This document shows positions 39,526-64,000 of a DNA stretch of 64,000 bases, piece by piece (the stretch's first letter is position 1; each line of letters begins with the position of its first letter). A program made the translations under genes and the position numbers. Origin of the DNA: Porodaedalea pini (taxonomy: Eukaryota > Basidiomycota > Agaricomycetes > Hymenochaetales > Hymenochaetaceae); the NCBI GenBank assembly GCA_002794775.1, contig NBAY01000006.1, positions 186,001 through 250,000 on the forward strand, in the 5' to 3' direction. The notes below the pieces were generated by a model that saw only the letters and a program-made list of their open reading frames with translations, was not told where the DNA came from and made no database searches.

Positions 39526-39948
39526 TGTCAGGACTCGAACTTCCCCTTTTCTTTATTTCCCCTTTTCCTTTTTCGTTTCTGTTAATTGCTCCTTTTCATT
39601 ATCTTTAATCATCTTTCCAATCACTTCCCACACTCCCTCTACACGACCTTCATTCGTTCCATTCCCACTCGTTATGTAATGTTAGGTAATATAGTCTCAC
39701 GGTCGTCGCTATATAAGGTCTCAGGAATCGCATGAACTCCTTGTTCTGCTTTTCCTCTTACCTCCGCGTCGACCTAGGTGAGACTCGTCCCCCTTGTATT
39801 AGTCTAGTCTTGTATTAATCCTCTTACCTCCGCGTCGACCTAGCCTGAGTAAGCGTGTCCCGAGTCTACGCTCGAGTATAGCACGTCCCAGACGACAGTC
39901 AGCCGAGGCCTGCCCAGTCCGAGCCGTCTCCCGGGCTTCCGCCTAACA
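39526..39948 (+). repeat. 5' LTR of gypsy element 1
   Basis: 423 bp, TG...CA ends. A TATATAAGG box at 39710-39718 is followed about 33 bp later by GTTCTGCTTTT (39743-39753), the likely RNA start. A 24-bp block beginning CCTCTTACCTCCGCGTCGAC is present twice (39754-39777 and 39820-39843). Confidence 0.97.
39710..39753 (+). promoter_or_regulatory. LTR TATA box and probable transcript start (self-primer sequence)
   Basis: TATATAAGG at 39710-39718, then GTTCTGCTTTT at 39743-39753, about 33 bp from the first T of the box, where a fungal RNA polymerase II start is expected. The same 11 bases in reverse complement form the primer-binding site after the LTR. Confidence 0.75.
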
Positions 39949-39949
39949 T

Positions 39950-39960
39950 AAAAGCAGAAC
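39950..39960 (+). other. Primer-binding site, self-primed type
   Basis: AAAAGCAGAAC begins one base after the LTR. It is the exact reverse complement of GTTCTGCTTTT in the LTR and does not begin with TGG as a tRNA 3'-end site would. This matches the self-priming scheme known from Tf1 and sushi elements. Confidence 0.8.
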
Positions 39961-40652: not shown

Positions 40653-41732
40653 ATGTCAGCAGAAGGTTTCAGCCAACAGCAAATGGCGCAGATCGCGGCC
40701 ATCGTTGCGAATGCCTTCGCCCATCAGGCGAACAACGCCCCAGCACCGGTCGCGGCCGCTAACCCCCCGACCCCCAACATAGACGTCGCCCGACCGCGTG
40801 AATTCACTGGTGGCGACGATTACCTTGACTTCAGACGCGAAGTCCTTCTTTTCGTGTCCGCGAACCCAAACCGATACCCTACGTCGGAGAGTAAGATCTA
40901 CGTAGCTCTCTCCTACCTGAAGGGTGGTAATGCGGCAACGTGGGCGCAGAACTACGTCGAGGAGTCGACAACGGCGGGAATCGTTACCTTCACGGACAGC
41001 TGGGAAAGATTCCAGGAACGACTCGACGCCTCGTTCGACGATCCGAACCGAAAGGAAGCTGCGCTGAAGGATTTCCGGGAGAAGGTTCAGAAGGACCTCA
41101 CCGCGGATAAGTTCTTCCAACAACTTGACGTCATCATCAAGCGGGCGGAACTGAAAGACGACAGCGTTATCTGCGACCGCCTCAAGCGAGCAATGAACAT
41201 CGAGGTAGTCCGCGGCGTGCTGAGGTCGACGCCCGTACCGACAACGTATGAGGCGTGGAAGAACAAAGCTATCGAGATCGATCGCGGAGAACAGCAGATC
41301 CGCGCGATTCAACGAGGCCGCCCGTTCATACCGCAACCTCGCCAACAACAACCGGCACCCCCCGCTCGGCGCCAAGTTGCAACCCCGCACGTCGACAAAC
41401 GCGACGCGACCGGCGTCACGTTCGGAGGTATCGGACAACCGATGGACGTCTCTATGAACGAGGCACGTCGCAGAAGAGCTTGCTGGATCTGTGGTCAAGA
41501 AGGCCACTTCAAGGACAGGTGCCCGCAGGGGAAACCGATTATCCAGCGCATGCTGGAACTGATGGCCCCTGGCGAACGCCGCATCCTCGCAGACGAGCTC
41601 GGAGCGATGAAGGAGTCAGCCTTCGAGGAAGTCGTAGACACTCGGAGGTCGACGGTGGAGGACTATGTGGAGGAAGGAGAGAATGACGAAGAGGTCGTTG
41701 ACTCGCAGGGTTTTGCGAGTGGTCAGGCGTAG
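40653..41732 (+). CDS. gag: Gag of gypsy element 1
   Basis: 359 residues from the first ATG. A gag core (PREFTGGDDYLDFRREVLLF ... RFQERLDASFDDPNRKEAAL) is followed by a Pro/Gln-rich linker and a CCHC zinc knuckle CWICGQEGHFKDRC. The same frame stays open and protein-like upstream to 40299 without any ATG, and element 2 shares this with an in-frame 6-bp size difference. The true N-terminus may therefore lie further upstream and use a non-AUG start or another mechanism. Ends TAG at 41730-41732, overlapping pol in the -1 frame. Confidence 0.93.
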   Translation: MSAEGFSQQQMAQIAAIVANAFAHQANNAPAPVAAANPPTPNIDVARPREFTGGDDYLDFRREVLLFVSANPNRYPTSESKIYVALSYLKGGNAATWAQNYVEESTTAGIVTFTDSWERFQERLDASFDDPNRKEAALKDFREKVQKDLTADKFFQQLDVIIKRAELKDDSVICDRLKRAMNIEVVRGVLRSTPVPTTYEAWKNKAIEIDRGEQQIRAIQRGRPFIPQPRQQQPAPPARRQVATPHVDKRDATGVTFGGIGQPMDVSMNEARRRRACWICGQEGHFKDRCPQGKPIIQRMLELMAPGERRILADELGAMKESAFEEVVDTRRSTVEDYVEEGENDEEVVDSQGFASGQA

Positions 41733-41750
41733 CCATCGGGGCGACTGACC
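41708..41750 (+). promoter_or_regulatory. Predicted -1 ribosomal frameshift signal, gag/pol of element 1
   Basis: GGGTTTT at 41708-41714 lies in the gag frame as G GGT TTT, fitting the X XXY YYZ slippery rule. Six bases later GGTCAG (41721-41726) can pair with CTGACC (41745-41750). Pol is in the -1 frame and open from 41702. The same arrangement is preserved in element 2. Confidence 0.75.
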
Positions 41751-44700
41751 GGGAAGAACAAGGGACTTTGAATCCGGACTCGTTAAAATATAACCAACCG
41801 TCTGTACAACACGTAGATGCGAACGACGTCGATGGTTTTCCGGAGTATGAAGTCCCCACCGGTGTGAAAAGAAGTGAAGGGTATGAGCAGTTGTTCATGA
41901 GAGGAACTGGCGGACGCCAGCTGGACCTTCTCCTGAACGTCGGACACAGTGTGAAAGGTGAAGTGAGGGAGGTAGACGCTCACGCACTCGTGGACTCGGG
42001 ATGTACAGGATCGTGCATCGACGTGAGGTTCGTCGAACGGTATGGGCTAGAGACGAAGCGGTATATCCGACCCCTTGCGGTGCTCAATGCCGACGGCACG
42101 CACAACGAAGCTGGGTTGATCGAGGAATACGTTGACGTTGAACTCACGATCGGTCATCATAAGGAACAGATCGTCCTGGCAGTAACCTCATTGGCGTCTT
42201 CTAACATCTTCCTGGGGTACGACTGGCTTCGACGACACAATCCAGAGGTCAACTGGAAGACGGGGACACTCGACTTTACTCGCTGTCCAGGTGAATGCGT
42301 GGTAGAGAAGGACGACGTGGAAGGTATGCGGAGGGTGTGGAGAGCAGCAGAGGAGACGAGGAGGGTGAGAGAGGTGCGAATGGACAAGGAGTCCTGGCCC
42401 GCATACCTCAACGACTACGCCGACGTCTTTAGCGAAAAAGGCTTCGAAAAGCTACCGGAACACCGACCGTGGGACCACGTCATCGACTTGAAGCCCGACT
42501 TCAAACCAAGTGACTGTAAAATCTACCCGCTCACGCCAACAGAGCAACAGTCACTCAAGGACTTCCTCGATGAAAACTTGAAGTCGGGTCGCATTCGACG
42601 GTCAATATCGCCCATGGCGTCGCCCTTCTTCTTCATTAAGAAGGCCGACAAATCGCTACGCCCGATCCAGGATTACCGTAAGCTCAATGACGGTACGATC
42701 AAGAACAAGTATCCCCTCCCTCTCATTGACGAACTCGTCGACAAGGTCAAGAAAGCGAAGTACATCACTAAGCTTGACCTTCGCTGGGGGTACTACAATA
42801 TCCGGATCCGCGAGGGTGACGAATGGAAAGCAGCGTTTCGCACAAACATGGGCCTCTTCGAACCGACGGTCATGTTCTTTGGTCTCTGCAACGCCCCGGC
42901 AACGTTCCAGGCTTTTGTCAATCACATCTTCAAGGAACTGATTTACGCTAACCTGATCATCGTATACCTCGACGACATATTGATCCTCTCGGAGACCATT
43001 GAGGAACATATAGACACGTCGAGGCGCGTCCTTCAGATCCTGCGAGAGAATGGCCTGTACCTGAAGCCGGAGAAGTGCGAATTTGACGCCAAGGTCGTCA
43101 AATACCTCGGCCACATCATTGGTAATGGCGAGATCAAGGCTGACCCAGCAAAGACGGAGGCGATTGCGAACTGGCCGGTCCCACGAAACCTGAAACAGCT
43201 ACAACAATTCCTCGGCATGGGTAACTGGCTACGACGGTTCATCAAGGACTACAGTAAGGTGGTCCATCCGCTGACGTCGTTAACGGGCAAGAAGGACTGG
43301 GTATGGGAGACCGAACAGCAGGAAGCGTTCGAGGAGCTGAGACGACGTCTCTGCTCACCTCCAGTCCTAGCCATCGCCAACGACGAGGGTCCTTTCCGCG
43401 TAGAAGCGGACTCGTCAAACTTTGCGCTCGGCGGTGTGTTGTTGCAAAAACAGGAAGGGAAGTGGAGGGTGATTGCCTATAGGTCAGAAGCGCTCCTACC
43501 CGCTGAACGAAACTACGAGATCTACGACAAGGAGATGCTCGCGATCGTTTCGGCGCTCAAGGAATGGCGACAATACCTCCTCGGCGCTCGCCACACGATC
43601 GAAATCTGGTCCGACCACGCTAACCTCACCTACTTCAGGTCAGCGCAGAAGCTGAGCTACCGTCAAGCCCGCTGGCGAACCGAACTCGAAGAGTTTGACT
43701 TCCACCTCGAACACAAGTCGGGGAAGACGATGGGCAAGGCGGACCTATTATCGCGCAAGGCAGGTTACGACAAGGGCCAGGATGACAACGACGGCATCGT
43801 CTTCATCAAGGAAAAGTGGTTGAATCGGGGAATAGTGAGGACGTCGCGGGATGAAGTGTTGGAACGAGTGGGTGAAGCGCAGAGGGCACAAGACGAGTCG
43901 GAAAGGCCGACGAATATGGTAGAAGTCGACGGGTTGTGGCGAATGAAAGGCAAGGTGTACGTGCCGTCGACGATGAAGGAAGCGGTGTTGAGGGAGTGCC
44001 ACGACTCGACCCTGGCAGGACATCCGGGATCGTCGAAGACGGTCGAACTGGTACGTCGAGACTTCTGGTGGGCGTCGATGTTCTCCGATGTCCGAGCATA
44101 CGTCCGAGGATGTGACCGCTGCCAACGAACGAAGGCTCTGAGGGCATCAAGGTCGAGGCCACTTCATCCAAACGCGGTCCCTGAAGGTCCCTGGGAAATT
44201 GTCACGGTCGACCTCATCGGAGAACTCCCGGACTCCAAGGGGCACAACGCAATCTGCGTTTTCGTCGATAGGTTCTCGAAACAGATGCACGCGATCCCGA
44301 CGACAACAAAATTGTCAGCGGAAGGCATGGCTCAACTGTACCGCGACCACGTCTTCCGTCTCCATGGCTTGCCAAAAAAGATCATCCATGACCGAGGCAC
44401 GCAGTTTGACGCATCAATGATGAGGGAGCTGTACAAACTCCTACACATCGAAGGCAACCCGTCGACGGCGTATCACCCGCAAACGGACGGTCAGACGGAA
44501 CGCGTCAACCAAGAGCTCGAACAGTACCTCCGGCTCTTCGTTGACCATCGGCAGTCAGACTGGAAAGACTGGCTCCCTCTCGCAGAGTTCGCCTACAACA
44601 ACCGAGAACACTCGGCGACAAAGATGTCACCCTTCTACGCGAACACTGGACGTCACCCTAGGAGCTTCGACGCCGTACGAACTTCCTCTACCAACATGTC

Positions 44701-45358
44701 GGCAGAAGAATTCGCGAAGCACATCAAGGAGACCCATCGCGCGGCAAGGGACAATCTGGTCAAGGCAGCAGAAGACATGAAACGCTACCATGACCGGACG
44801 GCAGGAGCATCGGTGGAATACAAGGCTGGCGACAAGGTCTTCCTTGACGGGCGAAACATCAGTACGGACTCGCCAACAAAGAAACTTGCAGACAAATGGT
44901 ACGGCCCCTTTGACGTCGTCGACAAGGTAGGAGCGAGCGCGTACAAGCTCAAACTCCCGAAGCGATGGAAAAAGGTCCACCCTGTCTTCAACGAAGCCCT
45001 GTTGAAACCCGCCGTTGAACCGTCGTTTGAGAGCCAGAAGCTACCGCCACCGCCACCACCGGAAATCGTCGACAACGAAGAGGAATACGAGGTTGAAGAG
45101 GTCATTGACTCACGTCTGCACCGAGGTAAACTACAGTACCTCGTCAAGTGGGTCGGGTACAACGAACCGACCTGGCAACCGGAGACGGACTTCGGCGAGA
45201 ACGCAAAGGAGGCAATTGCTGAATTCTACCTCAAACACCCCGGTGCTCCCCGCAAACTCGATATCCCTCGCTCACGACTCCGTCCGCTCTTCGTCGACAC
45301 CGAGCCAGACGACCGCGATCTTGGTTGGTCGGGACGCCCAACCTTGAGGGGGGGGTAA
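41714..45358 (+). CDS. pol: Pol polyprotein of gypsy element 1 (reached by -1 frameshift)
   Basis: 1214 codons plus stop after the slippery site; no ATG starts the frame. Aspartic protease VDSGCTGS; reverse transcriptase with RPIQDYRKLN, YITKLDLRWGYYNIRI and catalytic VYLDDILIL; RNase H with EADSSNFALGGVLLQ, YDKEMLAIVSALKEW and WSDHANLTYF; integrase with an H-H-C-C zinc finger (HDSTLAGH ... CDRCQRT) and DDE core (VTVDLIGELPD, HDRGTQFDASM, YHPQTDGQTERVNQELEQYL). The C-terminal chromodomain (YEVEEVIDSR, LQYLVKWVGYNEPTWQPETD) should steer integration toward modified histones. The TAA abuts the 3' LTR, and the polypurine tract GAGGGGGGGG lies inside the last codons. No inactivating change seen. 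Confidence 0.97.
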   Translation, partial: CEWSGVAIGATDREEQGTLNPDSLKYNQPSVQHVDANDVDGFPEYEVPTGVKRSEGYEQLFMRGTGGRQLDLLLNVGHSVKGEVREVDAHALVDSGCTGSCIDVRFVERYGLETKRYIRPLAVLNADGTHNEAGLIEEYVDVELTIGHHKEQIVLAVTSLASSNIFLGYDWLRRHNPEVNWKTGTLDFTRCPGECVVEKDDVEGMRRVWRAAEETRRVREVRMDKESWPAYLNDYADVFSEKGFEKLPEHRPWDHVIDLKPDFKPSDCKIYPLTPTEQQSLKDFLDENLKSGRIRRSISPMASPFFFIKKADKSLRPIQDYRKLNDGTIKNKYPLPLIDELVDKVKKAKYITKLDLRWGYYNIRIREGDEWKAAFRTNMGLFEPTVMFFGLCNAPATFQAFVNHIFKELIYANLIIVYLDDILILSETIEEHIDTSRRVLQILRENGLYLKPEKCEFDAKVVKYLGHIIGNGEIKADPAKTEAIANWPVPRNLKQLQQFLGMGNWLRRFIKDYSKVVHPLTSLTGKKDWVWETEQQEAFEELRRRLCSPPVLAIANDEGPFRVEADSSNFALGGVLLQKQEGKWRVIAYRSEALLPAERNYEIYDKEMLAIVSALKEWRQYLLGARHTIEIWSDHANLTYFRSAQKLSYRQARWRTELEEFDFHLEHKSGKTMGKADLLSRKAGYDKGQDDNDGIVFIKEKWLNRGIVRTSRDEVLERVGEAQRAQDESERPTNMVEVDGLWRMKGKVYVPSTMKEAVLRECHDSTLAGHPGSSKTVELVRRDFWWASMFSDVRAYVRGCDRCQRTKALRASRSRPLHPNAVPEGPWEIVTVDLIGELPDSKGHNAICVFVDRFSKQMHAIPTTTKLSAEGMAQLYRDHVFRLHGLPKKIIHDRGTQFDASMMRELYKLLHIEGNPSTAYHPQTDGQTERVNQELEQYLRLFVDHRQSDWKDWLPLAEFAYNNREHSATKMSPFYANTGRHPRSFDAVRTSSTNMSAEEFAKHIKETHRAARDNLVKAAEDMKRYHDRTAGASVEYKAGDKVFLDGRNISTDSPTKKLADKWYGPFDVVDKVGASAYKLKLPKRWKKVHPVFNEALLKPAVEPSFESQKLPPPPPPEIVDNEEEYEVEEVIDSRLHRGKLQYLVKWVGYNEPTWQPETDFGENAKEAIAEFYLKHPGAPRKLDIPRSRLRPLFVDTEPDDRDLGWSGRPTLRGG

Positions 45359-45781
45359 TGTCAGGACTCGAACTTCCCCTTTTCTTTATTTCCCCTTTTC
45401 CTTTTTCGTTTCTGTTAATTGCTCCTTTTCATTATCTTTAATCATCTTTCCAATCACTTCCCACACTCCCTCTACACGACCTTCATTCGTTCCATTCCCA
45501 CTCGTTATGTAATGTTAGGTAATATAGTCTCACGGTCGTCGCTATATAAGGTCTCAGGAATCGCATGAACTCCTTGTTCTGCTTTTCCTCTTACCTCCGC
45601 GTCGACCTAGGTGAGACTCGTCCCCCTTGTATTAGTCTAGTCTTGTATTAATCCTCTTACCTCCGCGTCGACCTAGCCTGAGTAAGCGTGTCCCGAGTCT
45701 ACGCTCGAGTATAGCACGTCCCAGACGACAGTCAGCCGAGGCCTGCCCAGTCCGAGCCGTCTCCCGGGCTTCCGCCTAACA
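45359..45781 (+). repeat. 3' LTR of gypsy element 1
   Basis: Identical by eye to the 5' LTR over 423 bp. It follows the pol stop codon without a gap and is followed by the second CCTAC copy, after which the interrupted host gene resumes. Confidence 0.97.
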
Positions 45782-54386: not shown

Positions 54387-54799
54387 TGTTAGGCGGGAGC
54401 CCGGGAGACGACTCGGACTGGGCAGGCCTCGGCTGACTGTCGTCTGGGACGTGCTATACTCGAGCGTAGACTCGGGACACGCTTACTCAGGCTAGGTCGT
54501 CGCGGAGGTAAGAGGATTAATACAAGTCTAAACTAATACAAGGGGGACGAGTCTCACCTAGGTCGTCGCGGAGGTAAGAGGAAAAGCAGAACAAGGAGTT
54601 CATGCGATTCCTGAGACCTTATATAGCGACGACCGTGAGACTATATTACCTAACATTACATAACGAGTGGGAATGGAACGAATGAAGGTAGTGTGGGAAT
54701 GATTGTGTAAGATGGGTAAATATAATGAAAAGGACGAATATAATAAAGGAAATGGTAAAAGGGAAAATAAAGGAAAAGGTGAAAGTTCAGGTTCTAACA
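54387..54799 (-). repeat. 3' LTR of gypsy element 2
   Basis: 413 bp, directly abutting the pol stop codon (TAA, complement of 54800-54802). It keeps CpG at the three sites where the other LTR has TpG or CpA. Confidence 0.95.
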
Positions 54800-57700
54800 T
54801 TACCCCCCCTTCAAGGTTGGGCGTCCCGACCAACCATGATCGCGGTCGTCAGGCTCGGTGTCGACGAAGAGCGGACGGAGTCGTTGACGAGGGATGTCGA
54901 GTTTCCGAGGTGCACCGGGATGTTTGAGGTAGAACTCAGCGATCGCCTCCTTCGCGTTCTCGCCGAAGTCCGTCTCAGGTTGCCAAGTAGGTTCATTGTA
55001 GCCAACCCACTTGACAAGGTACTGTAGTTTCCCTCGGTGCAGACGTGAGTCTAAGACTTCCTCGAGTTCGTATTCCTCCTCGTTGTCGACGATGTCTGGC
55101 GGCGGCGGCGGTGGTTGCTTCTGGCTTTCAAAGGACGGTTCGACGGCGGGTTTCAACAGGGCTTCGTTGAAGACAGGGTGGACCTTTTTCCATCGCTTCG
55201 GGAGTTTGAGCTTGTACGCGCTCGCTCCTACCTTGTCGACGATGTCAAAGGGGCCGTACCATTTGTCTGCGAGTTTCTTCGTCGGCGAGTCTGTACTGAT
55301 GTTTCGCCCGTCAAGGAAGACTTTGTCTCCAGCCTTGTACTCCACCGAAGCTCCTGCTGTCCGGTCATGGTAGCACTTCATGTCCTCTGCTGCCTTGACT
55401 AGATTGTCCTTAGCAACGCGATGAGTCTCCTTGATGTGCTTGGCGAATTCTTCCGCCGACATGTTGGCAGAGGAAGTTCGTACGGTGTCGAAGCTCATAG
55501 GGTGACGTCCGGTGTTTGCGTAGAAGGGTGACATCCTTGTCGCTGAATGTTCGCGGTTGTTGTAGGCGAACTCTGCGAGGGGGAGCCAGTCCTTCCAGTC
55601 CGATTGCCGATGATCGACGAAGAGCCGGAGGTACTGTTCAAGCTCTTGATTGACGCGTTCCGTCTGACCGTCCGTTTGTGGGTGGTATGCCATTGACGGG
55701 TTGCCTTCGATGTGTAGGAGTTTGTATAGCTCCTTCATCATCGACGCATCGAACTGTGTGCCTCGGTCGTGGATGATCTTCTTCGGTAGGCCATGGAGGC
55801 GGAAGACGTGGTCTCGGTATAACTGAGCCATGCCTTCTGCTGACAGTTTCGTCGTCGTCGGGATGGCATGCATCTGTTTCGAGAATCTGTCCACGAAGAC
55901 GCAGATTGCATTGTGTCCCTTAGAGTCCGGGAGTTCTCCGATTAGGTCGACCGTGATGATCTCCCAGGGACCTTCAGGGATCGCGTTAGGATGAAGCGGT
56001 CTCGACCTCGACGTTCTTAAGGCTTTCGTCCGTTGGCAACGGTTGCATCCTCGGACGTATGTTCGGACATCGGAGAACATTGACGCCCACCAGAAGTCTC
56101 GACGTACCAGTTCGACCGTCTTCGACGATCCAGGATGTCCTGCCAGGGTCGAGTCGTGGTACTCCCGCAATACCGCTTCCTTCATCGTCGACGGCACGTA
56201 CACCTTGCCTTTCATCCACCACAACCCGTCGACCTTCACCATATTCGTCGGCCTTTCCGACTCGTCTTGCGCTCTCTGCGCCTCACCCACTCGTTCCAAC
56301 ATTTCATCACGCGACGTCCTTACCACCCCACGGTTCAGCCATTTCTCCTTGATGAACACGATGCCGTCATTGTCATCCTTGCCCTGATCATAGCCCGCCT
56401 TGCGTGACAGCAAGTCGGCCTTGCCCATTGTCTTCCCCGACTTGTGTTCGAGGTGGAAGTCGAATTCCTCGAGTTCGGTTCGCCAGCGAGCTTGACGATA
56501 GCTCAGCTTCTGCGCTGACCTGAAGTAGGTGAGGTTGGCGTGGTCAGACCAGATTTCAATTTTGTGGCGAGCGCCAAGGAGGTATTGCCGCCACTCCTTG
56601 AGCGCCGAAACGATCGCGAGCATCTCCTTGTCGTAGATCTCGTAGTTTCGTTCCACCGGTTCAAGTGCCTCTGACCTGTAGGCGATCACCCTCCACTTCC
56701 CTTCCTGCTTCTGCAACAACACACCACCGAGCGCAAAGTTCGACGAGTCCGCTTCTACGCGGAAAGGGCCCTCGTCATTGGCGATGGCTAGGACTGGAGG
56801 TGAGCAGAGACGTCGTCTCAGCTCCTCGAACGCTTCTTGCTGTTCGGTCTCCCATACCCAGTCCTTCTTGCCCGTTAACGATGTCAACGGTCGGACCACC
56901 TTGCTGTAGTCCTTAATAAACCGTCTCAGCCAGTTTCCCATGCCGAGGAACTGTTGCAGCTCCTTGAGGTTCCGTGGGACTGGCCAGTTCGCAATCGCCT
57001 CCGTCTTTGCCGGGTCAGCCCTGATCTCACCATTGCCAATGATGTGGCCGAGGTATTTGACGACCTTGGCGTCAAACTCGCACTTCTCCGGCTTCAGGTA
57101 CAGGCCATTCTCTCGGAGGATCTGGAGTACGCACCTCGACGTGTCGATATGCTCCTCAATGGTTTCCGAGAGGATCAGGATGTCGTCGAGGTATACGATG
57201 ATCAAGTTCGCGTAGATTAGGTCCTTAAAGATGTGGTTGACAAAGGCCTGGAACGTGGCCGGCGCGTTGCAAAGACCAAAAAACATGACCGTCGGTTTGA
57301 AGAGGCCCATGTTCGTGCGAAACGCTGCTTTCCATTCGTCACCCTCGCGGATCCGGATATTGTAGTACCCCCAGCGAAGGTCAAGCTTAGTGATGTATTT
57401 CGCTTTCTTGACCTTGTCGACGAGTTCGTCAATGAGAGGGAGGGGATACTTGTTCTTGATCGTACCGTCATTGAGCTTACAGTAATCCTGGATGGGGCGT
57501 AGCGATTTGTCGGCCTTCTTAATGAAGAAGAAGGGCGACGCCATGGGCGATATCGACCGTCGAATGCGACCCGACTTCAGGTTTTCATCAAGGAAGTCCT
57601 TGAGTGACTGCTGCTCAGTCGGCGTGAGCGGGTAGATCTTACAGTCGCTCGGTTTGAAGTCGGGCTTCAAGTCGATGACATGGTCCCAGGGTCGGTGTTC

Positions 57701-58444
57701 CGGCAGCTTCTCGAAACCTTTTTCGCTGAAAACGTCGGCGTAGTCGTTGAGGTATGCGGGCCAGGACGTCTTGTCCATTCGCATCTCACTCACCCTCCTC
57801 ATCTGCTCCACCACCTTCTTCACCTCGCCTAGGTCCTCCACCGGCTCCCTCTCGATCGCACATTCTTCTGGACAGCGGGTGAATTCGATTGAGCCCGTTT
57901 TCCAGTCGACCTCCGGATTGTGACGTTGAAGCCAGTCGTACCCCAGGAAGATGTTCGATGACGCTAGGGACGTTACTGCGAGGACGATCTTCTCCTGATG
58001 ACGGCCGATCATGAGTTCGATGTCAACGTACTCCTCGATCAATCCGGCCTCATTGTGCGTGCCATCGGCGTTCAGCACCGCGAGGGGTCGAATGTAGCGT
58101 TTCGTTTCCAACCCGTACCTCTCGACGAACCTGACGTCGATGCAGGATCCCGTGCATCCCGAATCCACAAGGGCATGCGCATCTACCTCTCTCGCCTCAC
58201 CAGCTATTTCATGCTCGACGGTCAGGAGAAGGTCCAGCTGGCGTCCGCCAGTTCCTCTCATGAACAGTTGTTCGTACTCTTCATTCTTGTTCACACCGGT
58301 GGAGACTTCGTAATCGGGAAAACCATTGACGTTGTTCGCATCTACGTATTGTACAAACGGTTGGTTATATTTTAGCGGATCCGGATTCGAAGTCTCTTGT
58401 TCTTCTCGGTCAGTCGCCCCGATGGCTACGCCTGACCATTCGCA
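54800..58444 (-). CDS. pol: Pol polyprotein of gypsy element 2 (reached by -1 frameshift)
   Basis: Same length (1214 codons plus stop) and domain order as in element 1: protease VDSGCTGS, reverse transcriptase with VYLDDILIL, RNase H, integrase with H-H-C-C finger (CNRCQRT) and DDE residues, and a C-terminal chromodomain (YLVKWVGYNEPTWQPETD). The protease-RT linker differs most from element 1 (IEREPVEDLGEVKKVVEQ here). The frame is open from the slippery site without an ATG until 58294, so translation by frameshifting from gag is more likely than a separate start. No stop or frameshift lesion seen. Confidence 0.96.
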   Translation of the reverse strand, partial: CEWSGVAIGATDREEQETSNPDPLKYNQPFVQYVDANNVNGFPDYEVSTGVNKNEEYEQLFMRGTGGRQLDLLLTVEHEIAGEAREVDAHALVDSGCTGSCIDVRFVERYGLETKRYIRPLAVLNADGTHNEAGLIEEYVDIELMIGRHQEKIVLAVTSLASSNIFLGYDWLQRHNPEVDWKTGSIEFTRCPEECAIEREPVEDLGEVKKVVEQMRRVSEMRMDKTSWPAYLNDYADVFSEKGFEKLPEHRPWDHVIDLKPDFKPSDCKIYPLTPTEQQSLKDFLDENLKSGRIRRSISPMASPFFFIKKADKSLRPIQDYCKLNDGTIKNKYPLPLIDELVDKVKKAKYITKLDLRWGYYNIRIREGDEWKAAFRTNMGLFKPTVMFFGLCNAPATFQAFVNHIFKDLIYANLIIVYLDDILILSETIEEHIDTSRCVLQILRENGLYLKPEKCEFDAKVVKYLGHIIGNGEIRADPAKTEAIANWPVPRNLKELQQFLGMGNWLRRFIKDYSKVVRPLTSLTGKKDWVWETEQQEAFEELRRRLCSPPVLAIANDEGPFRVEADSSNFALGGVLLQKQEGKWRVIAYRSEALEPVERNYEIYDKEMLAIVSALKEWRQYLLGARHKIEIWSDHANLTYFRSAQKLSYRQARWRTELEEFDFHLEHKSGKTMGKADLLSRKAGYDQGKDDNDGIVFIKEKWLNRGVVRTSRDEMLERVGEAQRAQDESERPTNMVKVDGLWWMKGKVYVPSTMKEAVLREYHDSTLAGHPGSSKTVELVRRDFWWASMFSDVRTYVRGCNRCQRTKALRTSRSRPLHPNAIPEGPWEIITVDLIGELPDSKGHNAICVFVDRFSKQMHAIPTTTKLSAEGMAQLYRDHVFRLHGLPKKIIHDRGTQFDASMMKELYKLLHIEGNPSMAYHPQTDGQTERVNQELEQYLRLFVDHRQSDWKDWLPLAEFAYNNREHSATRMSPFYANTGRHPMSFDTVRTSSANMSAEEFAKHIKETHRVAKDNLVKAAEDMKCYHDRTAGASVEYKAGDKVFLDGRNISTDSPTKKLADKWYGPFDIVDKVGASAYKLKLPKRWKKVHPVFNEALLKPAVEPSFESQKQPPPPPPDIVDNEEEYELEEVLDSRLHRGKLQYLVKWVGYNEPTWQPETDFGENAKEAIAEFYLKHPGAPRKLDIPRQRLRPLFVDTEPDDRDHGWSGRPTLKGG

Positions 58445-58450
58445 AAACCC
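58408..58450 (-). promoter_or_regulatory. Predicted -1 frameshift signal, gag/pol of element 2
   Basis: On the minus strand GGGTTTT (complement of 58444-58450), six bases, then GGTCAG pairing with CTGACC (complement of 58408-58437). Position and sequence equal those in element 1, although neighbouring bases have changed (GCGAAT for GCGAGT). Confidence 0.75.
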
Positions 58451-59505
58451 TGCGAGTCGACGACCTCTTCGTTATCGCCTTCTTCCTCCACATAGTCCTC
58501 CACCGTCGACCTCCGAGTGTCTACGACTTCCTCGAAGGCCGACTCCTTCATCGCTCCGAGCTCGTCGGCGAGGACACGACGTTCGCCTGGCGCCATCAGT
58601 TCCAGCATGCGCTGGATGATCGGTTTCGCCTGTGGGCACTTGTCTTTAAAGTGGCCCAGCCCACCACAGATCCAGCACGCACGTCGTCGTTGTGCCTCGT
58701 TCATCGAGACGTCCATCGGTTGACCAGCGCCTCCAAAGGTGACGCCGGTCGCATCGCGTCTGTCGACGTGAGGGGCCGCTACCTGACGGCGAGCTGGGGG
58801 CGCTTGTTGTGGTAGGCGAGGAGGGGGAAGAAAGGCGCGTCCTCGTTGGATAGCGCGAATCTGCTGTTCGCCGCGGTCTATTTCAATCGCCTTGTTCTTC
58901 CAATCCTCGTATTTCGTTGGGACTGGCGTCGACCTTAGCACTCCACGGACCACCTCGATGTTCATCGCCCGCTTGAGGCGATCGCAGATGACGCTGTCGT
59001 CTTTCAACTCGGCGCGCTTAATTATCACGTCGAACTTCTGGAAGAACTCGTCCGCGGTTAGGTCCTTCTGAACCTTATCTTGGAAATCCTTCAGCGCTTT
59101 CTCCTTGCGATTCGGGTCGTCGAACGAGGCGTCGAGTCGTTCCTGGAATCTTTCCCAGCTGTCGGTGAAGGTGACAATCCCCGACGTTGTCGACTCCTCG
59201 ACGTAGTTCTGCGCCCACGTTGCCGCATTACCACCCTTCAGGTAGGAGAGAGCTACATAAATCTTACTCTCTGACGTAGGGTATCGACTTGGATTTGCGG
59301 ATACAAAAAGGAGGACTTCACGTCTGAAGTCGAGGTAATCGTCGCCACCAGTGAATTCTCGTGGTCGGGCGACATCTATGTTGGGGGTCGGGGGGTTAGC
59401 GGCCGCGACCGGTGCTGGGGCGTTGTTTGCCTGATGGGCGAAGGCATTCGCAACGATGGCTGCGATCTGCGCCATTTGCTGTTGGCTGAAACCTTCTGCT
59501 GACAT
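58426..59505 (-). CDS. gag: Gag of gypsy element 2
   Basis: 359 residues, same length as in element 1, with the gag core (PREFTGGDDYLDFRREVLLF) and CCHC knuckle CWICGGLGHFKDKC. The same frame continues open upstream of the ATG with conserved protein-like sequence (LTDEQQRALPASARWDP, then WYSSDERGRRARWPP) and a 6-bp in-frame length difference from element 1, hinting at a longer Gag. Confidence 0.93.
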   Translation of the reverse strand: MSAEGFSQQQMAQIAAIVANAFAHQANNAPAPVAAANPPTPNIDVARPREFTGGDDYLDFRREVLLFVSANPSRYPTSESKIYVALSYLKGGNAATWAQNYVEESTTSGIVTFTDSWERFQERLDASFDDPNRKEKALKDFQDKVQKDLTADEFFQKFDVIIKRAELKDDSVICDRLKRAMNIEVVRGVLRSTPVPTKYEDWKNKAIEIDRGEQQIRAIQRGRAFLPPPRLPQQAPPARRQVAAPHVDRRDATGVTFGGAGQPMDVSMNEAQRRRACWICGGLGHFKDKCPQAKPIIQRMLELMAPGERRVLADELGAMKESAFEEVVDTRRSTVEDYVEEEGDNEEVVDSQGFANGQA

Positions 59506-60203: not shown

Positions 60204-60214
60204 GTTCTGCTTTT
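60204..60214 (-). other. Primer-binding site of element 2, self-primed type
   Basis: On the minus strand AAAAGCAGAAC starts one base after the 5' LTR, as in element 1. Its complement GTTCTGCTTTT lies in the LTR (complement of 60411-60421) just downstream of the TATATAAGG box. Confidence 0.8.
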
Positions 60215-60215
60215 A

Positions 60216-60628
60216 TGTTAGGCGGGAGCCCGGGAGATGACTCGGACTGGGCAGGCCTCGGCTGACTGTCGTCTGGGATGTGCTATACTCGAGCGTAGAC
60301 TCGGGACACGCTTACTCAGGCTAGGTCGTCACGGAGGTAAGAGGATTAATACAAGTCTAAACTAATACAAGGGGGACGAGTCTCACCTAGGTCGTCGCGG
60401 AGGTAAGAGGAAAAGCAGAACAAGGAGTTCATGCGATTCCTGAGACCTTATATAGCGACGACCGTGAGACTATATTACCTAACATTACATAACGAGTGGG
60501 AATGGAACGAATGAAGGTAGTGTGGGAATGATTGTGTAAGATGGGTAAATATAATGAAAAGGACGAATATAATAAAGGAAATGGTAAAAGGGAAAATAAA
60601 GGAAAAGGTGAAAGTTCAGGTTCTAACA
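60216..60628 (-). repeat. 5' LTR of gypsy element 2
   Basis: 413 bp; carries all three CpG transitions relative to the 3' LTR (near 60238, 60270 and 60330). It contains the TATA box, the self-primer start and the doubled 24-bp block. Confidence 0.95.
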
Positions 60629-63570: not shown

Positions 63571-63984
63571 TGTTAGAACCTGAACTTTCACCTTTTCCTT
63601 TATTTTCCCTTTTACCATTTCCTTTATTATATTCGTCCTTTTCATTATATTTACCCATCTTACACAATCATTCCCACACTGCCTTCATTCGTTCCATTCC
63701 CACTCGTTATGTAATGTTAGGTAATATAGTCTCACGGTCATCGCTATATAAGGTCTCAGGAATCGCATGAACTCCTTGTTCTGCTTTTCCTCTTACCTCC
63801 GCGACGACCTAGGTGAGACTCGTCCCCCTTGTATTAGTTTAGACTTGTATTAATCCTCTTACCTCCGTGACGACCTAGCCTGAGTACAGCGTGTCTCGAG
63901 TCTCCACTCGAGTATAGCACGTCCCAGACGACAGTCAGCCGAGGCCTGCCCAGTCCGAGTCGTCTCCCGGACTCCCACCTAACA
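63571..63984 (+). repeat. 5' LTR of gypsy element 3
   Basis: 414 bp from TGTTAGAACCTGAAC to CACCTAACA, closely similar to element 2's LTRs and in opposite orientation, with the same TATA box and GTTCTGCTTTT (63778-63788). Confidence 0.92.
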
Positions 63985-64000
63985 TAAAAGCAGAACCCCA
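63571..64000 (+). mobile_element. Ty3/gypsy element 3, cut by the window edge
   Basis: After the LTR comes the self-primer site AAAAGCAGAAC (63986-63996) and the first leader bases, so a third element of the same family begins here and continues beyond the window. A solo LTR would not be followed by the primer-binding site. Confidence 0.85.

Follow-up and report, generated by a model that had tools for sequence, protein, structure and literature searches.

How does an LTR retrotransposon start its first DNA strand when the site beside its 5' LTR does not resemble the target of a tRNA, the usual primer in most LTR elements? The question arises in a stretch of 64,000 nt from the basidiomycete Porodaedalea pini (contig NBAY01000006.1, positions 186,001 to 250,000), hereafter the window. 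An earlier note, made from its letters alone, described three gypsy elements in which 11 nt just past the LTR are the reverse complement of 11 nt within it, and proposed that the RNA of these elements folds back to prime its own copying, as in Tf1 and sushi chromoviruses. We followed up this proposal in the window, in the 53-Mb genome assembly of the host and among other retrotransposon families of that genome. Our results make it very probable that this family, here called family A, self-primes its reverse transcription, as a further case of the Tf1/sushi kind, where the mechanism is already known.

The elements of the window

Family A is, on its sequence features, a Ty3/gypsy chromovirus LTR retrotransposon; we class it so because of the domain set of its gag and pol, which includes a chromodomain, the -1 overlap between the two frames and the polypurine tract. 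Its LTRs have TG...CA ends and are flanked by 5-bp target duplications. Copy 1 lies on the forward strand, with a 5' LTR of 423 bp (TGTCAGG...CCTAACA, 39526-39948) that is base for base the same as the 3' LTR (45359-45781), and the target duplication CCTAC on both sides. The gag ORF (40653-41732, 359 aa) encodes a Retrotrans_gag domain and a CCHC zinc knuckle. It overlaps by 31 nt the pol reading frame (41702-45358), which lies in the -1 frame and encodes protease, reverse transcriptase (RT), RNase H, integrase, SH3_Tf2-1 and chromodomain. A candidate -1 slippery site, G GGT TTT (41708-41714), falls within the overlap and is in register, as worked out by hand. In the domain search, pol showed integrase zinc and core domains besides protease, RT and RNase H, the core at 31.4 bits against a cut-off of 32.6, and a chromodomain at the integrase C-terminus (PF00385, E 2.4e-9). 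After the G-rich polypurine tract GAGGGGGGGG (45346-45355) come the stop codon of pol, TAA, and then the 3' LTR.

Copy 2 lies on the reverse strand. Its 5' LTR (60216-60628, 413 bp) has three differences from its own 3' LTR (54387-54799), its target duplication is CCGTT, and it holds a gag ORF (58426-59505), a pol ORF (54800-58294) and the same candidate frameshift heptamer, from 58450. Copy 3, on the forward strand, has its 5' LTR at 63571-63984 and runs past the end of the window.

The complementary pair and its conservation

The pair described in the earlier note was recovered in all three elements, on both strands and with all six coordinates exact. The putative primer binding site (PBS) AAAAGCAGAAC is perfectly complementary to the putative self-primer GTTCTGCTTTT: 39950-39960 pairs with 39743-39753 in copy 1 (forward), 60204-60214 with 60411-60421 in copy 2 (reverse), and 63986-63996 with 63778-63788 in copy 3 (forward). 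The spacing given there is also correct: because the LTR of copy 1 ends at 39948, its PBS starts after a single base, T39949. In every copy the TATATAAGG box (39710-39718 on the forward strand in copy 1) starts 33 nt upstream of GTTCTG, the predicted 5' end of the RNA, and in copy 1 the PBS begins 207 nt downstream of that start. As expected, the PBS half is missing at the two 3' LTRs of the window, which hold only GTTCTGCTTTT (45576-45586 and 54582-54592). When the LTR of family A and the 30 nt after it were shuffled with dinucleotides preserved, a perfect complement of at least 11 nt starting 0-3 nt after the LTR arose in 1 of 5000 shuffles, a figure that covers complementarity and position at the LTR edge and leaves the TATA-defined start site out of account.

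The pair is unchanged in all 32 distinct copies with both sites, namely the three window copies and 29 other loci fetched from the genome (the best 30 of 40 scored matches were fetched, one of them, L001, being window copy 1). In the alignment of 32 rows, two of which (L001 and copy 1) stand for one locus, 91 of 548 columns vary and none of the 22 pair columns does, which has a probability of about 0.02 if sites are independent. Taken alone, this invariance is weak evidence, because the fetched loci are nearly identical to copy 1, with 0-7 differing columns over about 550 nt. A pattern spanning the LTR edge occurs at 272 places, and among the 100 listed, 97 hold the PBS (95 of them exactly) and three are other LTR ends. 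Allowing up to three mismatches, the genome contains 884 PBS-like sites, against one for a reversed control pattern. This high copy number, with the identical LTRs of copy 1, points to recent activity of family A.

The same design with different letters

More telling is the comparison with other chromoviruses of the same genome. Translated RT segments fall into three groups, A, B and C, of which B is 67% and C 60% identical to A; C was found once by its RT, among the 150 of 1196 candidates that were scored. For the pairs of B and C, a single element of each family was examined. Each has a perfect 11-nt pair 2 nt after the LTR (AGTTTCGACCT/AGGTCGAAACT in B, AGAATTGTTAA/TTAACAATTCT in C), lying 35 nt downstream of a TATA-like box (TATATAAG in B, TATTTAAG in C), and the letters of the two pairs are unlike those of A and unlike each other. 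The helix is exactly 11 bp in all three families, with mismatches bounding both ends, and 11-nt complements arose in 1, 1 and 2 of 5000 dinucleotide shuffles for A, B and C, respectively. The LTR ends were set by the second LTR and the target duplication: 445 bp, 100% identity and TTCTG in B, and about 650 bp, 99.8% and AGACC in C, where the 5' LTR begins TATC at the place at which the 3' LTR has TGTC. Edges like that of B, within three mismatches, number 130 in the genome, against 2 for the reversed control. Both families have a chromodomain (E 6.8e-19 in B; E 1.1e-9 in C, in a frame that differs from that of the integrase end of that copy). We regard this comparison between families as strong evidence for self-priming.

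The pair reported for C came from a search made after its LTR ends were fixed. An inverted 11-mer from the first scan of RT loci, AACATTTTGAG, was dropped, as it lies inside gag (C2:2138751-2139026), and so was a 10-nt inverted match at another locus (L116, contig C66) that had no LTR support.

Host tRNAs and tRNA-primed elements

The earlier note had named a host tRNA pairing better with the PBS as a finding that would speak against its reading. None emerged among the 51 tRNA calls tested, an incomplete set (59 places found, 52 fetched and 51 confirmed by ARAGORN). Within these calls, exact matches inside the PBS of A are at most 7 nt long, the longest being internal to a tRNA; there is no exact match at a tRNA 3' end, an 8-nt match falls downstream of the PBS, and tRNA 3' termini fit the region at 8 of 12 positions at best, at offset 7. 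The absence of a TGG start, also remarked on in that note, was borne out: the first TGG after the LTR is at nt 194 in A (copy 1), 56 in B and 35 in C. Family A thus has neither the TGG start of tRNA-primed Ty3/gypsy elements nor, within the incomplete tRNA set, their complementarity to a tRNA 3' end. The PBS region of C has a 10-nt match to an internal stretch of tRNA-Ser, starting 9 nt after the LTR. Among the tRNA-like matches, four stand 131-138 nt apart in one array (G000:C1:917318-917798), and ARAGORN called two of them tRNA-Met.

Other families of the same genome served as controls. In two Copia families (L144 and L146; contigs C12 and C143), the PBS pairs over 14 and 16 nt with host tRNA-Met around the anticodon arm, as in half-tRNA priming; for one of them we placed the LTR end at the start of the tRNA-Met match, which lies 2 nt inside the BLAST match. 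A self-pair sought 0-3 nt after these LTRs gave complements of 7 and 5 nt at most, and complementarity to the anticodon arm of tRNA-Met is absent from the PBSs of A, B and C. A divergent gypsy family, D (contig C71; L168/L147/L149/L169), with relatives on C59 and C4, has an LTR of 281 bp, the target duplication GTCAG and the RT stretch GDCNSG. We found no chromodomain in its 3' ORF, no self-pair (5 nt at the longest) and no match of more than 7 nt to the tested tRNAs.

Covariation and folding

Covariation of PBS and LTR among genomic copies of one family, which had been proposed as a check, was not found; the two sites change together only between families. In A, 2 of the 97 listed PBSs are variant, the mate is unchanged in both, and there is no compensation. 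In B, 10 of the 11 listed places with one mismatch were fetched and seven have a change inside the PBS core: two have a matching change in the mate, one pairs only as G-U, and four lose one or two pairs. Each side of the two matching changes is a CpG transition, and CpG decay on both sides would also explain them. So the variants of A and B do not show selection on pairing in decaying genomic copies.

In RNA started at GTTCTG, the helix is part of the predicted minimum free energy (MFE) fold of both A copies, with a mean pair probability of 0.95-0.96, and the folds predicted for A and C have all of R-U5 closed by it. When the sequence of B is extended by 40 nt downstream, its 11-bp helix drops out of the MFE fold and has a mean pair probability of 0.28. 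The two further duplexes of the Tf1 'pretzel' were not both found in A, B or C; at most one per family is above chance, and none in A copy 1. For the duplex downstream of the PBS, 300 (A copy 1), 14 (A copy 2), 1446 (B) and 1079 (C) of 2000 mononucleotide shuffles were as good; for the upstream duplex the counts were 998, 606, 70 and 8 of 2000, in the same order.

A repeat and a missing unit in R

Between primer and PBS, copy 1 has a 24-nt direct repeat in R, on the forward strand, whose first unit (39754-39777) abuts the self-primer and whose second (39820-39843) starts 66 nt after the first. An exact search found 34 LTRs from which this 66-nt unit is exactly missing. Of these, 24 can be matched into 12 pairs on the same strand, with 5.75-5.85 kb between partners; the LTRs of one shortened element are expected at 5767 nt (the 5833 of copy 1 less 66). 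The 11-nt pair is kept in all 16 shortened 5' LTRs fetched (of the 34), with the gap 66 nt shorter. The unit (GTGAGA...CCTAG), right behind the self-primer and the first repeat, resembles a small GT...AG intron.

In a tree built without the repeat, printed with no support values, the shortened copies are scattered over several places, so either the change took place more than once or an old state has persisted. That the unit is gone from both LTRs suits an event at the level of the RNA or of strong-stop DNA, either RT slippage or GT...AG splicing. That the RNA of family A is sometimes spliced in R, the short R then being copied into both LTRs, strikes us as a long shot. Splicing predicts that the letters of the first repeat are retained, and they are in all five shortened copies that cluster with copies 2 and 3 of the window; against it, four of the 16 that were fetched, sitting on other branches, have the letters that the second repeat has in copies 2 and 3. 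The data on shortened LTRs are also explained if RT slipped from one 24-nt repeat to the other, or if a state with a single repeat is old. Were splicing to occur, family A would be a self-priming retrotransposon with an optional intron in the loop between primer and PBS, still transposing.

Discussion

Our results suggest that the PBS of family A is complementary to the first 11 nt or so of its own RNA, with the start placed from the TATA box, instead of to a tRNA. The RNA would start at GTTCTG, about 33 nt after the box, and its first 11 nt would loop back to pair with the PBS, which begins 1 nt past U5. The RNase H of the element would then cut after base 11, as in Tf1, and the freed 3' end would be extended across U5 and R to yield minus-strand strong-stop DNA; the transcript 5' end, the fold-back, the cleavage of the primer and its extension are the steps that we infer. 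In each cycle the PBS of the new copy would be remade against the primer, keeping both sites matched, and this remaking would explain why the pair is nearly invariant within a family and has different letters between families.

Three other accounts of the pair have to be weighed. A host tRNA, whole or half, might be the primer and the 11-nt pair a chance inverted repeat. This would agree with the habit of most LTR elements, including the two Copia families with tRNA-Met sites, and it draws on the incompleteness of our tRNA list. Yet it would have to accommodate the distant first TGG of A, B and C and the poor match of tRNA 3' termini to A, and it would require the same accident in each of three families, which makes it highly improbable. 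The near identity of the fetched loci to copy 1 would suit an account in which recent copies share the pair by descent, as a relic under no selection, but B and C have other letters and perfect complementarity at the same place, and we give this account almost no credence.

The pair might also be real but act in another function of the RNA, for instance by closing a helix needed in packaging, dimerisation or the control of translation, with priming achieved otherwise. In the folds predicted for A and C, the helix that closes R-U5 does resemble a possible packaging structure. Nonetheless, a position defined by the LTR edge and by the TATA-defined start, with a fixed 11 bp in three families, is that of a primer and its PBS, and no other candidate primer site was seen; we consider this account very unlikely. 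The reading of the earlier note, self-priming of the Tf1/sushi type, is supported by the likeness to the architecture of Tf1 (PMC7175516), by the two further families, by the absence of such a pair from the two Copia families and from D, and by the lack of a better partner among the tested tRNAs.

The published systems place family A among known relatives. In Tf1, the first 11 bases of the RNA are complementary to the PBS and RNase H cleaves between bases 11 and 12 (PMC7175516); Tf1 also needs two further duplexes (PMC10085805). Tf1 and Tf2 of Schizosaccharomyces pombe resemble A in having a chromodomain and, next to the 5' LTR, a PBS that pairs with 11 nt at the start of the RNA, a start that in A is predicted (PMC7175516, PMC10085805). 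Tf1 differs from A in having one ORF and no CCHC motif in Gag (PMC10085805), whereas gag and pol of A overlap in the -1 frame and its Gag has the CCHC motif. The latter traits are those described for the Tf1/sushi group outside fission yeasts, which has a CCHC Gag and predominantly -1 frameshifting (PMC10085805), and the CCHC Gag and candidate frameshift of A appear to match that usual layout. The group has fungal and vertebrate members, among which self-priming is described as common, and its tree includes marY1 of Tricholoma, MAGGY, skippy and sushi-ichi (PMC10085805). Family A resembles these other chromoviruses, as described for the group (PMC10085805), in its CCHC Gag, candidate -1 frameshift and probable self-priming, and appears to differ in the letters of its pair and the 24-nt repeat in R. 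Self-priming was also proposed for the gypsy element Tcn1 from Cryptococcus neoformans, a basidiomycete yeast (PMC7175516). It is predicted for most plant elements of the Tcn1 clade (PMC6317226), and for one Tcn1-like plant element neither tRNA priming nor self-priming was detected (PMC2864245).

Among the 120 pol homologues listed of 5653, the named sources are fungal except for one alga and one fish, and the closest named relatives are Sanghuangporus vaninii pol proteins, named hypothetical, which are 69% and 67% identical across 96% of the query. Viral contigs scanned with the pol protein alignment gave no relatives. A literature search that mostly excluded subscription papers found no paper on family A itself. 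We see family A as a further case of known self-priming because the mechanism is already described for the Tf1/sushi group and we found no paper on A: what is known from yeast and fish relatives is self-priming, and what is new here is a well-supported further example.

Overall, one fungal genome appears to hold at least three chromovirus families, each with its own perfect 11-nt self-primer, beside two Copia families with tRNA-Met sites. Because these coexist, the rule that RNA start and PBS change together, over a length of 11 bp, would be testable on natural variants. The recent activity to which the copies of family A point lies outside the yeasts in which the mechanism was established.
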